A stretch of DNA of 64,000 nt from Alphaproteobacteria bacterium (GTDB lineage Bacteria > Pseudomonadota > Alphaproteobacteria > Reyranellales > Reyranellaceae): assembly GCA_016870115.1 (NCBI GenBank), contig VGCH01000002.1, positions 124,001-188,000 of the forward strand, written 5' to 3'. This document shows positions 7,923 through 13,022 of the stretch, in pieces (positions within the stretch are counted from its first letter, which is position 1; each line of letters begins with the position of its first letter). Made by a program: the position numbers and the translations under genes. The notes below the pieces were generated by a model. It made no database searches. It was given only the letters and a program-made list of their open reading frames with translations, and was not told where the DNA came from.

Positions 7923-8077
7923 GGGCCCCCGCGCGCAACTCCCTTGCGCACGATGAGTTCACCATGGCCCAAAAATTAAGTCAACAATAGATAACTATTT
8001 TTTCGCCGACACCCCGAGAAGAGGTGTTCCATCAGCCTAGCCCTCTGACTGGTGGTGAAAATAGTATCGAAACCGGA
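7923..8077. promoter_or_regulatory. Probable promoter region of the gltD operon
   Basis: This 155-base gap separates the end of the NDUFA9-like gene from gltD, both on the minus strand. Its core at about 7970-8010 is strikingly AT-rich compared with the roughly 70% GC surroundings, with A and T runs flanking a TTGACT hexamer on the minus strand. That suits an upstream promoter for the gltD-gltB operon. No convincing -10 could be fixed and no good sigma54 -24/-12 pair was seen here. Confidence 0.4.
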
Positions 8078-9031
8078 CTAAATGGGAGCCTCCCGATTGT
8101 AGCGGCCGCCGGCGCGGAACCGGTCGAGATAGGTCGGTAGAATCGCCTCCACCGAGGTCGGCGCGACACCCAGCTCGGCAAGACCAGGCACCCCCGCGCG
8201 GACCACATTGTCCTGGGTCAGGAGCCCCACCTGGTCTGCGGTGATGGGCGGCACCGGCAGAAACTCCGCCAGCCAACCGCCGATCGTCATCAAGGCCGCC
8301 GGCACGCCGATCACCGGCTTGTCGCGCCCGATCTGGCGCAGCACGAGGGCCGCGATCTCGCGATAAGTGAAGACCCGCGGGCCGCCCAGCTCGAACACCA
8401 TGCCGGCCGTTTCGGGGCGAGTGGCTGCCGCGACCACCGCCGCGGCAAGATCGCCGACAAAGATCGGCTGCACCCGCGCGCGGCCATCGCCCACGAGCGG
8501 CAGGAAGGGCGCGGTGGTGGCGATGCGCGCCATCCGGTTGAACATCGCATCGTCGGGCCCGAACACGACACTGGGCCGCAGGATGGTGGCGCGCGGAAAG
8601 CCCGCGACGATGGCGCCCTCGGCGCCGACCTTGGAGCGGATGAAGGGATTGCGCGACTCGCGATCGTCGGCGCCCAGCCCGGAGATATGGATCACCCGCT
8701 CGGCGCCGCCCGCACGCGCGGCCTCCGCTATGGCGGCGGCGCCCGCGACATGCACGGCCTCGTAGCGCTGACGCAGGCGCTGAAAGGGAATGCCCGCGGC
8801 GTTCACGACGACCTGACTGCCCTCGGCCGCCCGCCGCACCGAATCGGGCATGCGCAGGTTGGCGATCACTGGCACCACCTGGCCCACTTCGCCGGCGGTG
8901 CGCGTGGCCTCGACGAACGCCAGCCGTCGCGCCGCGACCCGCACCCGCGCGCCGGCCCGCGCGAAGGCCCGGACGACCGACCGGCCGACAAAACCGCTGC
9001 CGCCAAACACCGTCACTTCCCTGATCGCCAT
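8078..9031 (-). CDS. NAD-dependent epimerase/NDUFA9-like protein
   Basis: This 317-residue protein opens with a Rossmann dinucleotide motif, VTVFGGSGFVGRSVVRAF, followed by features of the atypical SDR group that includes complex I subunit NDUFA9 (GAERVIHISGLGAD, RPSVVFGPDDAMFNRMA, PIFVGDLAAAVVAA). Alphaproteobacterial members are often called complex I NDUFA9 subunit family protein, and a role in respiration or quinone metabolism is inferred only from that. The canonical YxxxK is replaced by a weaker SxxxK arrangement, normal for the group. The ATG at 9029-9031 was chosen because the longer frame adds an unrelated leader. Confidence 0.85.
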   Translation of the reverse strand: MAIREVTVFGGSGFVGRSVVRAFARAGARVRVAARRLAFVEATRTAGEVGQVVPVIANLRMPDSVRRAAEGSQVVVNAAGIPFQRLRQRYEAVHVAGAAAIAEAARAGGAERVIHISGLGADDRESRNPFIRSKVGAEGAIVAGFPRATILRPSVVFGPDDAMFNRMARIATTAPFLPLVGDGRARVQPIFVGDLAAAVVAAATRPETAGMVFELGGPRVFTYREIAALVLRQIGRDKPVIGVPAALMTIGGWLAEFLPVPPITADQVGLLTQDNVVRAGVPGLAELGVAPTSVEAILPTYLDRFRAGGRYNREAPI

Positions 9032-9100
9032 GCCGCATCTCCGCTGCGCTGCCCGTGCTGGGCTATAGAGCATCGACGCGCCCACGCAAGGGTGCGCCGG

Positions 9101-9129
9101 TTGACATCGAAGCGGGCCCGCCGTAACGA
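9101..9129 (+). promoter_or_regulatory. Sigma70-type promoter of tRNA-Leu
   Basis: TTGACA at 9101-9106 is followed by exactly 17 bases and TAACGA at 9124-9129, about 25 bases before the mature tRNA. The perfect -35 box and ideal spacing make this a strong housekeeping promoter candidate. RNase D begins only 26 bases after the tRNA, so the same promoter may serve it. Confidence 0.7.
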
Positions 9130-9154
9130 ACGGCCGCTTCGAGCCGCGTGCCGT

Positions 9155-9239
<85 letters not shown>

Positions 9240-9265
9240 TGCCGCTCCTTCGAGGCAGGCACTGA

Positions 9266-9877
9266 ATGGCGATCAGCCTTTACCGCGACGACCTGCCCCC
9301 CGGCCTGGATCTCGGATCCGTCGTCGCCATCGACAGCGAAACCATGGGGCTGAACCCGCACCGCGACCGGCTGTGTCTGGTGCAGCTCTCCTCGGGCGAT
9401 GGCAACGCGCATCTCGTGCAGATCGCGCGCGCGCCCAAGCCGGCGCCACGCCTCGCGGCGCTGATCGCCGATCCCAAGGTGCTGAAGCTCTTCCATTTCG
9501 GCCGGTTCGATATCGCCGTGCTCGAGCATAGCCTCGGCGTCCGTTGTGAGCCGGTCTACTGCACCAAGATCGCGGCCCGCCTCACGCGCACCTTCACCGA
9601 CCGGTTCGGCCTCAAGGATCTCTGCAAGGAGTTGCTGGGCGTCGAGATCTCCAAGCAGCAGCAGAGCTCCGACTGGGGCGCCGACCAGCTGACGGACGAG
9701 CAGATGGCCTACGCCGCCTCCGACGTCCTGCACCTGCACGCACTCAAGGCCCGGCTGGATGCGCTGCTCGCCCGCGAAGGCCGCACCGAGCTCGCCGAAG
9801 CCGCCTTCCGGTTTCTGCCGGCACGCGCCCGCCTCGACCTCGCCGGCTGGCCCGAAACCGACATTTTTGCCCACTGA
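9266..9877 (+). CDS. rnd: Short ribonuclease D-type 3'-5' exonuclease
   Basis: This 203-residue protein is a DEDDy exonuclease: Exo I has D23 and E25 in AIDSETMGL, Exo II is in FHFGRFDIAVL, and Exo III is YAASDVLHLH with the catalytic Tyr and Asp. It consists of the nuclease domain only, without the HRDC domains of the longer E. coli RNase D, as is common in alphaproteobacteria. It is expected to trim 3' ends of structured RNAs such as tRNA precursors, fitting the tRNA gene 26 bases upstream. It directly precedes rpoN. Confidence 0.9.
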   Translation: MAISLYRDDLPPGLDLGSVVAIDSETMGLNPHRDRLCLVQLSSGDGNAHLVQIARAPKPAPRLAALIADPKVLKLFHFGRFDIAVLEHSLGVRCEPVYCTKIAARLTRTFTDRFGLKDLCKELLGVEISKQQQSSDWGADQLTDEQMAYAASDVLHLHALKARLDALLAREGRTELAEAAFRFLPARARLDLAGWPETDIFAH

Positions 9878-9963
9878 GCCCCTACCGGGGCTGGGCGCTC
9901 GCGGGGTGCGCGCGAGGTTCAGGTGGGGGCGGACGGGTGAGTCCCAGTTCAGAGCGATAATTT

Positions 9964-9979
9964 TGGCACGATTCTTGCA
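9964..9979 (+). promoter_or_regulatory. Sigma54 (-24/-12) promoter of rpoN
   Basis: TGGCAC, five bases, then TTGCA gives a full match to the sigma54 consensus. The invariant GG is at 9965-9966 and GC at 9977-9978, with the correct 12-base phase. Transcription would start near 9990, 37 bases before the rpoN ATG. RpoN would then act on its own gene, with an unidentified enhancer-binding activator. Confidence 0.85.
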
Positions 9980-10026
9980 TTGACCTCCCTTGAGGGTATG
10001 GGCACCCTCGTTTTGGGGGAGAATTG

Positions 10027-11559
10027 ATGCGTATCGGTCCCAGTCTGATCGTCGCACCGCGGCAGGCCTTGGCCATGACGCCGCAGCTGCAACAGGCGAT
10101 CAAGCTGCTGCAATTCTCCCAGCTCGAACTTGCGGCCTATCTCCAGCAGGAGCTCGAGAAGAACCCGCTCCTCACCGAGGCTTCGGTCGATCTGGACGAG
10201 GGGCCCGAGGCGCCGCCGGAGGCTGAACCGGTCGATACCGCCCAGGCCCTGCGGGACGCCACGCCGGCGCTCGCCGAAGCCGACGAGCGTTGGACGCGCG
10301 AGCATGCCGATCGCGGCGGCGATGCACTGGCCTCGACCGTGCGTCGCGATCCCGACGCGCCCGACGCGCTGGATTTTCTCGCCGACAAGCCGCTCTCGCT
10401 TGAGGCTCATGTCGCGCGCCAGATCGGGCTCACCATCCAAGAACCCGCCGCGCGTCGCATCGCCGACGCGCTCGCCCGCGAACTCGATGACGCCGGTTAC
10501 TGCCGCGTCGACGTGGCGCGCGTGGCGGCGGCGCTGGGCGTCACCGTGGAGGCCGTCGAGGCGGTGCGGGGTCGCCTGCGCGCGATCGAACCCGCCGGTC
10601 TTTTCGCGCGTGATCTTGGCGAATGCCTCGCGGCGCAGCTCGCCGAGCGCAACCGCCTGGACCCGGCGATGCAAGCGTTGCTGGCCAACCTCGCTCTGGT
10701 CGCGTCCGGCGATCTCGTCGGCCTGCGCAAGCGCTGCGGCGTCGACGCCGCCGATCTCGCCGACATGCTTGCCGAACTGCGGGCGCTGGATCCGCGGCCC
10801 GGTCTCGCCTTCGATACTGAAGCGCCGCCCACCGCCGCGCCCGACATCGTCCTGAGCGAGGTGCGCGATCCCGACACCGGCGAGCGCGGTTGGCATCTCG
10901 AACTCACCACCGAGGCGCTGCCGCGCGTGCTGGTCGATCGGCACTATCACGCGACGCTGATGAAGGGCGCGCGCTCGCGGCCCGACCGCGATTTCGTCGC
11001 CGAACGTTTCCAGTCGGCCAACTGGTTGGTGAAGACGCTGGAGCAGCGCGCCACCACCATCCTGAAGGTCGCGCGCGAGATCGTGCGGCAGCAGGATGCG
11101 TTCTTCCGCGAAGGCGTTGGCAAGCTGCGTCCGCTGGTGTTGCGCGACATCGCGATCGCCACCGAGCTGCATGAGAGCACGGTGAGCCGCGTCACCTCCA
11201 ACAAGTACATCGCGACGCCCTCGGGCACGTTCGAGCTCAAGTACTTCTTCACCTCGGCGCTGGCCGGCGCCCAGCCCGGCGCCACCGTCTCCTCCGAGGC
11301 GGTGCGCCAGCGCATCCGGCTGCTGATCGAGGGCGAAGGCGCGGTCCGGCCGCTGTCCGACGACCGGCTGGTGGCGCTCCTCAAGGGCGAGGGGATCGAG
11401 ATCGCGCGCCGCACCGTCGCCAAGTATCGCGAGGCGCTCCGCATTCCCTCGTCGGCCGAGCGCCGGCGCCTGGGGCGGGTCGGGCTGCGCCGGGGTCCGG
11501 CGGCGGCAGCCATCCCGCCGGCCCAGGCCGCCTTGGCCCTTCACGGGACTGTTGCTTGA
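10027..11559 (+). CDS. rpoN: RNA polymerase sigma-54 factor
   Basis: This 510-residue protein is the alternative sigma factor for nitrogen and other activator-dependent promoters. Region I is glutamine- and leucine-rich (MTPQLQQAIKLLQFSQLEL), an acidic region II follows, then the core-binding domain. Near the C-terminus are the helix-turn-helix (IATELHESTVSRVTSNKYI) and the RpoN box ARRTVAKYRE, which contacts the -24 element. The ATG at 10027 follows a GGGGGAGA ribosome site and was preferred to the TTG one codon earlier. The usual lptA/lptB genes upstream and hpf downstream are missing. Confidence 0.97.
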   Translation: MRIGPSLIVAPRQALAMTPQLQQAIKLLQFSQLELAAYLQQELEKNPLLTEASVDLDEGPEAPPEAEPVDTAQALRDATPALAEADERWTREHADRGGDALASTVRRDPDAPDALDFLADKPLSLEAHVARQIGLTIQEPAARRIADALARELDDAGYCRVDVARVAAALGVTVEAVEAVRGRLRAIEPAGLFARDLGECLAAQLAERNRLDPAMQALLANLALVASGDLVGLRKRCGVDAADLADMLAELRALDPRPGLAFDTEAPPTAAPDIVLSEVRDPDTGERGWHLELTTEALPRVLVDRHYHATLMKGARSRPDRDFVAERFQSANWLVKTLEQRATTILKVAREIVRQQDAFFREGVGKLRPLVLRDIAIATELHESTVSRVTSNKYIATPSGTFELKYFFTSALAGAQPGATVSSEAVRQRIRLLIEGEGAVRPLSDDRLVALLKGEGIEIARRTVAKYREALRIPSSAERRRLGRVGLRRGPAAAAIPPAQAALALHGTVA

Positions 11560-11641
11560 CCGTCCGGGGGGCACGCCCTATACGGGCCCACCCCTCGCCG
11601 GCCCGCGTCTTGGGCTTGCCGGCTAACCACTTGGTGTAATT

Positions 11642-12112
11642 GTGGAAATTGCCGATTTGCTGATGGGTCCGGAGGCCGTGCTGGCGGGCCTCAAGGTCTC
11701 GGCCAAGAAGCCCGTGCTCGATGAATGTGCAGGTCTCGCCGCCCGTCTGTGGGGGCATGATCGCCGACGGGTGTTCGAACTTCTCCTGGAGCGCGAGCGG
11801 CTCGGTTCAACCGGCGTCGGGGGCGGTATCGCGATCCCGCACGCCCGCCTGGCCGGCATGTCGCGGCCGGCGGCGCTGTTCGCCCGGCTGGCGCAGCCCG
11901 CGGAGTTTGACGCGATCGACCAGCGGCCGGTCGATCTCGTGTTCATGCTGCTGTCGCCCGATGGCGCCGGCGCCGATCATCTGAAGGCGCTGGCGCGGCT
12001 CTCGCGCACGATGCGCGATCGCACGCTCGTCGAGAAGCTTCGCGCCACGGATGCCGCTGACGCGCTCTTCGCTCTCCTCGTCGAACCCGCGGCCACCCTG
12101 CACGCCGCCTAG
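11642..12112 (+). CDS. ptsN: PTS IIA-like nitrogen-regulatory protein PtsN
   Basis: This 156-residue EIIA(Ntr) protein carries the phosphoryl-accepting His67 in GGIAIPHARL and ends with the usual helical segment. In the nitrogen PTS it receives phosphate from NPr/EI(Ntr) and regulates potassium uptake, nitrogen and PHA-related processes by protein contacts. The start is a GTG giving MEIADLL, the conserved family N-terminus; no clear Shine-Dalgarno precedes it. It lies 82 bases after rpoN, where many proteobacteria have hpf in between. Confidence 0.92.
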   Translation: MEIADLLMGPEAVLAGLKVSAKKPVLDECAGLAARLWGHDRRRVFELLLERERLGSTGVGGGIAIPHARLAGMSRPAALFARLAQPAEFDAIDQRPVDLVFMLLSPDGAGADHLKALARLSRTMRDRTLVEKLRATDAADALFALLVEPAATLHAA

Positions 12113-12132
12113 AGAGCGGCGGCAGGCGAGCG

Positions 12133-12160
12133 CCGCCCGCGCGTCAATGGACGCGGGCGG
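12133..12160. other. GC-rich hairpin between converging ptsN and DUF1150 genes
   Basis: CCGCCCG (12133-12139) pairs with CGGGCGG (12154-12160) around an inner CGTC/GACG stem, overlapping the last codons of the DUF1150 gene. It sits where two transcripts converge and could slow both, but no T-run follows on either strand, so a terminator call is weak. Confidence 0.3.
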
Positions 12161-12365
12161 GTTCCAAATCGTGCTGGCGGATCATCGCCTCGGCGATCTC
12201 GACCGAGGGCGCGGCCGCGATCGGTTTGCCGTCGGCGGAGAAAATGCCAATCGCGTGCTGGCCGTCGGCGAGATTGACCCGACGCACATAAGCGACCTGC
12301 TGGGCGCCCAGCGCCAGGAACGCGTCGTCGGCGAGACGAACGTAAGCGGATGCGATGCTGTCCAC
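12144..12365 (-). CDS. DUF1150 family protein
   Basis: This 73-residue protein has LGAQQVAYVRRVNLADG, HAIGIFSADGKPIA and a C-terminal IRQHDLEPARVH, all typical of the alphaproteobacterial DUF1150 family, whose function is unknown. The GTG at 12363-12365 follows a good AGGGAGG ribosome site and is preferred to longer upstream frames. It lies 11 bases after the Hsp20 gene in the same orientation. That pairing is widespread in alphaproteobacteria and suggests a link to heat-shock or small-chaperone function. Confidence 0.85.
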   Translation of the reverse strand: MDSIASAYVRLADDAFLALGAQQVAYVRRVNLADGQHAIGIFSADGKPIAAAPSVEIAEAMIRQHDLEPARVH

Positions 12366-12376
12366 GCGATCCTCCC

Positions 12377-12832
12377 TTAGCGGCCGCCGCGGCGTGCGGC
12401 GATGTCGATGGGCGCGTCCGCTGCGCCCCGCGCGTCGATCCTGATCGTGCGCACCCGGGGCTCGACCTCGGGTCGCATCAGCTCGATCGACAGCAGCCCG
12501 TTGTCGAGGCGCGCGCCGGTGACCTCGATACCTTCGGCCAGCATGAAGGCGCGCTGGAACTGGCGCGCGGCGATCCCGCGATGGAGATAGACCCGCTCCG
12601 GATCGTCGGCCTGTCGGCCGCGCACAGTCAGTTGGTTCTCCGCGAGCTCGATCGTGAGATCGGCCTCGGCGAAGCCCGCCACGGCCAGCACGATGCGCAA
12701 GCCGTTGGTGCCGACACGTTCGATATTGTACGGCGGGTAGCCCTCGGCGTTCTTGGCCAACCGATCGAGCGAACGCTCCAGCTGGTCGAAGCCCAGCAAG
12801 AGCGGCGAATTGAAAACACCCAGACGACTCAA
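12377..12832 (-). CDS. Hsp20/IbpA-type small heat-shock protein
   Basis: This 151-residue protein has an alpha-crystallin domain from about residue 35 (YPPYNIERVG) through LTVRGRQ and YLHRGIAARQFQRAF to NGLLSIELMRPE, followed by a short IRI-containing tail. Small Hsps hold unfolding proteins for refolding by DnaK/ClpB. The start is a TTG at 12830-12832 behind a strong AAGGAGGAGG ribosome site. That site can pair with a GGGTCC segment about 25 bases upstream, so thermosensor-type control is possible. It forms an operon with DUF1150. Confidence 0.9.
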   Translation of the reverse strand: MSRLGVFNSPLLLGFDQLERSLDRLAKNAEGYPPYNIERVGTNGLRIVLAVAGFAEADLTIELAENQLTVRGRQADDPERVYLHRGIAARQFQRAFMLAEGIEVTGARLDNGLLSIELMRPEVEPRVRTIRIDARGAADAPIDIAARRGGR

Positions 12833-12876
12833 CGGACCCTCCTCCTTGGAGCGAGCGGGCAGGGGACCCGGAACGG

Positions 12877-12904
12877 CATCCCCGTGACAGTGAATCTGGG
12901 GATG
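12877..12904 (-). promoter_or_regulatory. Hairpin in the Hsp20 leader, possible RNA thermometer element
   Basis: A perfect 7-base stem CATCCCC/GGGGATG closes a 14-base loop about 45-72 bases upstream of the Hsp20 start. CGG and CCG flanks extend the stem across a small bulge. Together with the possible pairing that hides the ribosome site, this resembles the multi-hairpin leaders of alphaproteobacterial small heat-shock genes, but the ROSE signature was not firmly identified. Confidence 0.35.
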
Positions 12905-13022
12905 AACCGGGCGGCTTCAATCCCCAGTCGCGGCCCCGTCCGGTCGCCAGCCGGCCCGCCGTCAGCTACACTCGCTCGTCCCTGAAACCCCGGTCCCATG
13001 CCCCCTTGCGGTCCGACGCCCC

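Follow-up and report, generated by a model that had tools for sequence, protein, structure and literature searches.

Sigma-54 is often regarded as constitutive, with control resting with the activators. A near-perfect sigma-54 site lies directly in front of rpoN, the gene for sigma-54 itself, in the window (the whole 64-kb stretch of DNA that was analysed), and it raises the question of whether RpoN acts there on its own gene. The organism is a relative of Reyranella, a large sister genus, and not a rhizobium. Within this clade RpoN very probably controls its own production through the near-perfect site before rpoN, and the sequence speaks for sigma-54 abundance being itself under control in the Reyranella clade. 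The locus is arranged as follows.

9266..9877, + strand: rnd-like 3'-5' exonuclease gene (ribonuclease D family), the upstream neighbour of rpoN (open reading frame; PF01612, E 6.6e-37)
9964..9979, + strand: sigma-54 -24/-12 element TGGCACG-ATTC-TTGCA, also split as TGGCAC-GATTC-TTGCA (12/12 consensus; 36/36 clade conservation)
9990, + strand: predicted transcription start (+1), 11 bases past the last -12 base by standard sigma-54 promoter geometry
9991..10010, + strand: predicted 5'-terminal leader hairpin TGAGGGT-atgggc-ACCCTCG (arm pairing; own versus swapped arms)
10015..10021, + strand: Shine-Dalgarno-like GGGGGAG (sequence)
10027..11559, + strand: rpoN (sigma-54), 510 amino acids from ATG (open reading frame; PF00309, PF04963, PF04552)
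11642..12112, + strand: ptsN-like EIIA(Ntr) gene (open reading frame; PF00359, E 4.9e-28)

The -24/-12 element in front of rpoN

The RpoN reading frame is complete, with its activator-interacting (AID), core-binding (CBD) and DNA-binding (DBD) domains, and rpoN is present in single copy in the window's genome. The ptsN-like gene begins 82 bases past the rpoN stop (intervening bases 11560-11641) and probably shares the rpoN transcript. Neither a terminator-like site nor a sigma-70-like promoter was found in 9100-11700. The gap between rpoN and ptsN, 82 bases in the window, is about 770 bases in the sister genus g4 (L030), where there is room for an hpf-like gene.

The original prediction placed a near-perfect -24/-12 site 48-63 bases before rpoN, and this was borne out. 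Positions 9964-9979 of the + strand read TGGCACGATTCTTGCA, which agrees with all 12 specified positions of TGGCACG-N4-TTGCW, including the GG and GC at -24/-12, and the site lies 63-48 bases 5' of the rpoN ATG at 10027. This is the sole exact match to TGGCACN5TTGCW within the 64-kb window. Allowing one mismatch gives 2 matches in the window versus 1.44 expected by chance, and the exact pattern occurs 5 times in the whole genome versus 2 times for the reversed pattern, so a lone match is by itself weak evidence. The remaining exact matches in the genome include sites 5' of glnK-amtB and of a nitrate-type transporter gene.

What carries the element beyond chance is its conservation in front of rpoN among relatives. 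We picked rpoN loci with readable 5' ends from the window genome's family by protein similarity, blind to the motif. At all 36 of these 5' ends, which come from the window's genus and Reyranella, the best site matched 11-12 of the 12 positions and lay at -59 to -64; the runner-up site at the same 5' ends matched 6-9 of 12. A motif-based scan, in which the motif was joined to the RpoN start, found matches in 58 of 75 family genomes, and its reversed control found 0. Eight Reyranella genomes were missed by that scan: in five of them the element is there but departs slightly from the pattern or from the start-codon anchor, and in the other three the assembly does not include an rpoN 5' end. Failure of the element to be conserved among relatives had been named beforehand as a possible refutation; on inspection, the element proved to be conserved within its own clade. 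One further genome (G092) has two differing rpoN 5' ends, one of them partial, on contigs 47 and 197 (L170 and L163), possibly reflecting contamination or a second copy.

Among the relatives, part of which were selected on the motif, the element is constant and the flanking bases are variable. Its distance to the ATG is nearly fixed, and the gap to the upstream gene may be as short as a few bases or as long as about 90. In two genomes, G020 (L025) and G061 (L165), rnd was not found in the fetched upstream DNA, and both element and leader are kept. We therefore assign the element to rpoN and not to rnd. A functionless, consensus-like match to which sigma-54 does not bind would agree with the few exact matches per genome that are expected by chance, but conservation in 36/36 loci at a fixed position amid variable flanks, together with survival of the element through a change of upstream gene, renders this reading highly improbable. 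The conservation indicates that the rpoN site is a genuine, strongly conserved sigma-54 element that belongs to rpoN.

The leader hairpin

With the start set 11 bases past the -12 element, the predicted untranslated leader measures 32-38 nt in 58/58 leaders. The 5' arm of the leader hairpin mostly begins at +2 to +8, and a G-rich Shine-Dalgarno sequence follows. The arm sequences vary between species (for example GGAGGTC/GACCTTC, GAGGGCGA/TCGCCCTC and GGGAAGGC/GCCTTCCC). In 24 diverged leaders, a leader's own arms outpaired arms swapped between species, with scores of 17.96 versus about 15.0 and a permutation p of 0.0005, which is the floor of 2000 permutations. RNAalifold, run on a MAFFT alignment of the leaders, did not recover the hairpin and returned no covarying pair; its consensus is uninformative, probably because species differ by a few bases in where the hairpin lies. 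An Rfam search of 8000-13000 returned one tRNA only, and the leader hairpin matches no known family. We rejected the idea that the hairpin is a terminator, since the locus showed no terminator-like site and the T-run is missing in relatives.

Judging by the order of element, hairpin, Shine-Dalgarno sequence and ATG, promoter and leader appear to form a single module, and the fixed geometry of element, hairpin and ATG favours a working promoter. The hairpin would probably shield the short leader or help to present the Shine-Dalgarno sequence; its protective role is one that we infer.

Activator, activation and repression

The window's genome encodes both RpoN and a GAFTGA activator. Two full-length PF00158 (σ54-interaction-domain) proteins, NtrC and NtrX, are encoded adjacent to each other on contig 14. 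NtrC carries ELFGHERGAFTGA and NtrX is without GAFTGA (contig 14, 19176-19670), so NtrX is unlikely to activate sigma-54 promoters. The Reyranella orthologues of NtrC retain GAFTGA. Other PF00158 matches in the window's genome are weak and are probably other AAA+ proteins. NtrC is the sole GAFTGA enhancer-binding protein found in this genome, and so the likely activator if the rpoN promoter fires; as the assembly is a draft in 59 contigs, it might lack a second one.

The original prediction had also called for a search for activator-binding inverted repeats, such as NtrC sites, upstream of rpoN, and here the outcome was divided: NtrC stands as the likely activator, but no NtrC-type dyad or inverted repeat was recognised within 300 bases upstream of rpoN. 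As glnK likewise gave no definable dyad in this clade, the lack of a recognised enhancer at rpoN is uninformative. Sites matching TGCAC-N7-GTGCA with no more than three mismatches are rarer than chance in the window, and 9700-9960 contains no good one; the final 360 bases of rnd showed no silent-site block of unusual conservation. Two candidate motifs were discarded. GCA-N7-TGC, present at 13/14 glnK and 0/40 rpoN, was withdrawn as an NtrC site since it is the reverse complement of a -24/-12 element; it represents a divergent σ54 promoter, and the comparison of glnK with rpoN therefore says nothing on NtrC. GCA-N9-TGC, present in 17/39 upstream regions, was rejected as an enhancer, its hits lying mostly on conserved rnd codons at about -224. 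Most Reyranella glnK genes (L132-L145) are accompanied, ~40 bases upstream of their own -24/-12 element, by another that is divergent and faces a divergently read gene.

On balance, we lean towards the view that 9964-9979 is an autogenous sigma-54 promoter, activated by NtrC, that raises rpoN-ptsN expression above a basal level. RpoN-RNA polymerase would be held at the element as a tight closed complex. Under nitrogen limitation, phosphorylated NtrC would open this closed complex and so increase rpoN-ptsN transcription, and the transcript would start near 9990, with the hairpin at its 5' end and the Shine-Dalgarno sequence behind it. Basal RpoN would be supplied by read-through out of rnd, which we propose because a terminator-like site was not found between rnd and rpoN. 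T at -17 (0.90) and A/T from -10 to -7 are preferred in the rpoN promoters, in contrast to the glnK promoters of these genomes. Such bases are expected to favour tight sigma-54 binding and easy melting.

The chief alternative to activation is autorepression. It is possible, and to our minds doubtful, that the element is an operator at which the RpoN-polymerase closed complex blocks rnd read-through or is in competition with a sigma-70 promoter overlapping it, and so keeps RpoN at a set level. The C at -12 is invariant in the rpoN elements of the clade, as it is in all reported sigma-54-repressed sites of Escherichia coli, where sigma-54 competes with sigma-70 (PMC4551910). Autorepression would also suit a gene upstream of which no enhancer is recognised, and the rpoN of Rhizobium leguminosarum is negatively autoregulated, a case cited in PMC3538637. 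In 15/40 relatives, and in 0/14 glnK promoters, a sigma-70-like YTGAC-N18-TAnAnY can be read across the element, an overlap that would suit a repressor role and also account for the fixed leader spacing. However, neither the window (ATAATT/TGACCT) nor most relatives have the sigma-70-like elements, and the search of 9100-11700 for a sigma-70-like promoter, described above, detected none. An operator, moreover, needs no fixed spacing to hairpin and ATG unless it overlaps a start. Activation and autorepression may possibly be combined at the rpoN element.

A different enhancer-binding protein in place of NtrC would make the rpoN promoter answer to something other than nitrogen control. PF00158 matches number as many as 8 in some Reyranella genomes, and the draft state of the window's assembly also speaks for this reading, but conservation of the element is just as strong in genomes, the window's included, whose sole strong matches are NtrC and NtrX, and we consider another activator unlikely. 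The loop predicted with NtrC would be cleanly testable, since only one GAFTGA activator was found in the simplest genome.

Proposed origin of the predicted promoter, and known systems

Sister genera g4 and g5, like f2, have rpoN directly behind the end of lptB, and there the gene is without such an element. Searches of the window's genome and the tested members of genera g2 and g3 detected no LptB (at E below 1e-70), LptC or LptD. In the g2 genome rnd adjoins rpoN, and a degenerate element, TGGCGTGATTCTTGCC, lies at -122, counted from the rpoN start presumed in that comparison. We propose that loss of lptCAB, which stands ahead of rpoN in related lineages, brought rpoN behind rnd and removed its old promoter. 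The rpoN sigma-54 promoter seems to have arisen on or after this loss, an order of events that we infer, and a global regulator probably came to need new control through the loss of LPS export, a pathway unrelated to it. Tentatively, we speculate that loss of the LPS-export operon stranded rpoN and led to a self-driven positive loop of NtrC and sigma-54 with a dedicated hairpin leader; the abundance of sigma-54 would then be nitrogen-regulated and possibly bistable, and its regulon would be one with a single activator.

LpxC (PF03331) was found in 0/28 searched genomes of the family f1 and in none of f2, and 14/17 other alphaproteobacteria were positive. With LpxC, LptB, LptC and LptD undetected in the respective genomes searched, the clade may lack lipopolysaccharide.

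Autoregulated rpoN genes were expected to have precedents, and rhizobial and other cases are indeed in the literature. RpoN autoregulation is already known, and the Reyranella-clade case is a further, unusually well-conserved instance. A 2025 survey (PMC12316311) predicts sigma-54-dependent rpoN in alpha-, beta- and gamma-proteobacteria and in other classes, and cites Geobacter sulfurreducens and Dokdonia as sigma-54-dependent rpoN cases. The survey and our locus have in common a -24/-12 promoter before rpoN that implies autoregulation. In contrast to the survey, which reports enrichment by class, the present case concerns a single clade in which all genomes examined show the promoter; its leader hairpin is conserved as well, and the change of gene neighbourhood can be traced.

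In Rhizobium etli and Mesorhizobium loti, rpoN2 belongs to a NifA-dependent prxS-rpoN2 operon with its promoter before prxS (PMC3538637). Transcription of an rpoN gene is sigma-54-dependent there, as we predict here; however, rpoN2 is a second, symbiotic copy, whereas in the window's genome rpoN has no second copy, its predicted promoter lies directly before it and NtrC is the sole candidate activator. The R. leguminosarum rpoN mentioned above is closer in being a single copy under its own control, as is predicted here. There the sign of regulation is established; here it may be positive, negative or both. In Bradyrhizobium sp. DOA9, RpoN binds the rpoNc and rpoNp promoters in gel shifts (PMC13207237). 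Sigma-54 binding at rpoN promoters is common to both cases, by experiment in DOA9 and, here, as a prediction from conservation of the element.

Similar rpoN-proximal elements occur in Alcanivorax relatives, SAR92, one Granulosicoccaceae genome, HTCC5015 and other gammaproteobacterial genomes, and two uncultured alphaproteobacteria also have a -24/-12 element close to rpoN. In a scan of named genomes, limited to rpoN starts with a second codon that opens with a base other than C, the matches (L117-L128 and L130) exceed the roughly one expected, an expectation that is a rough estimate.
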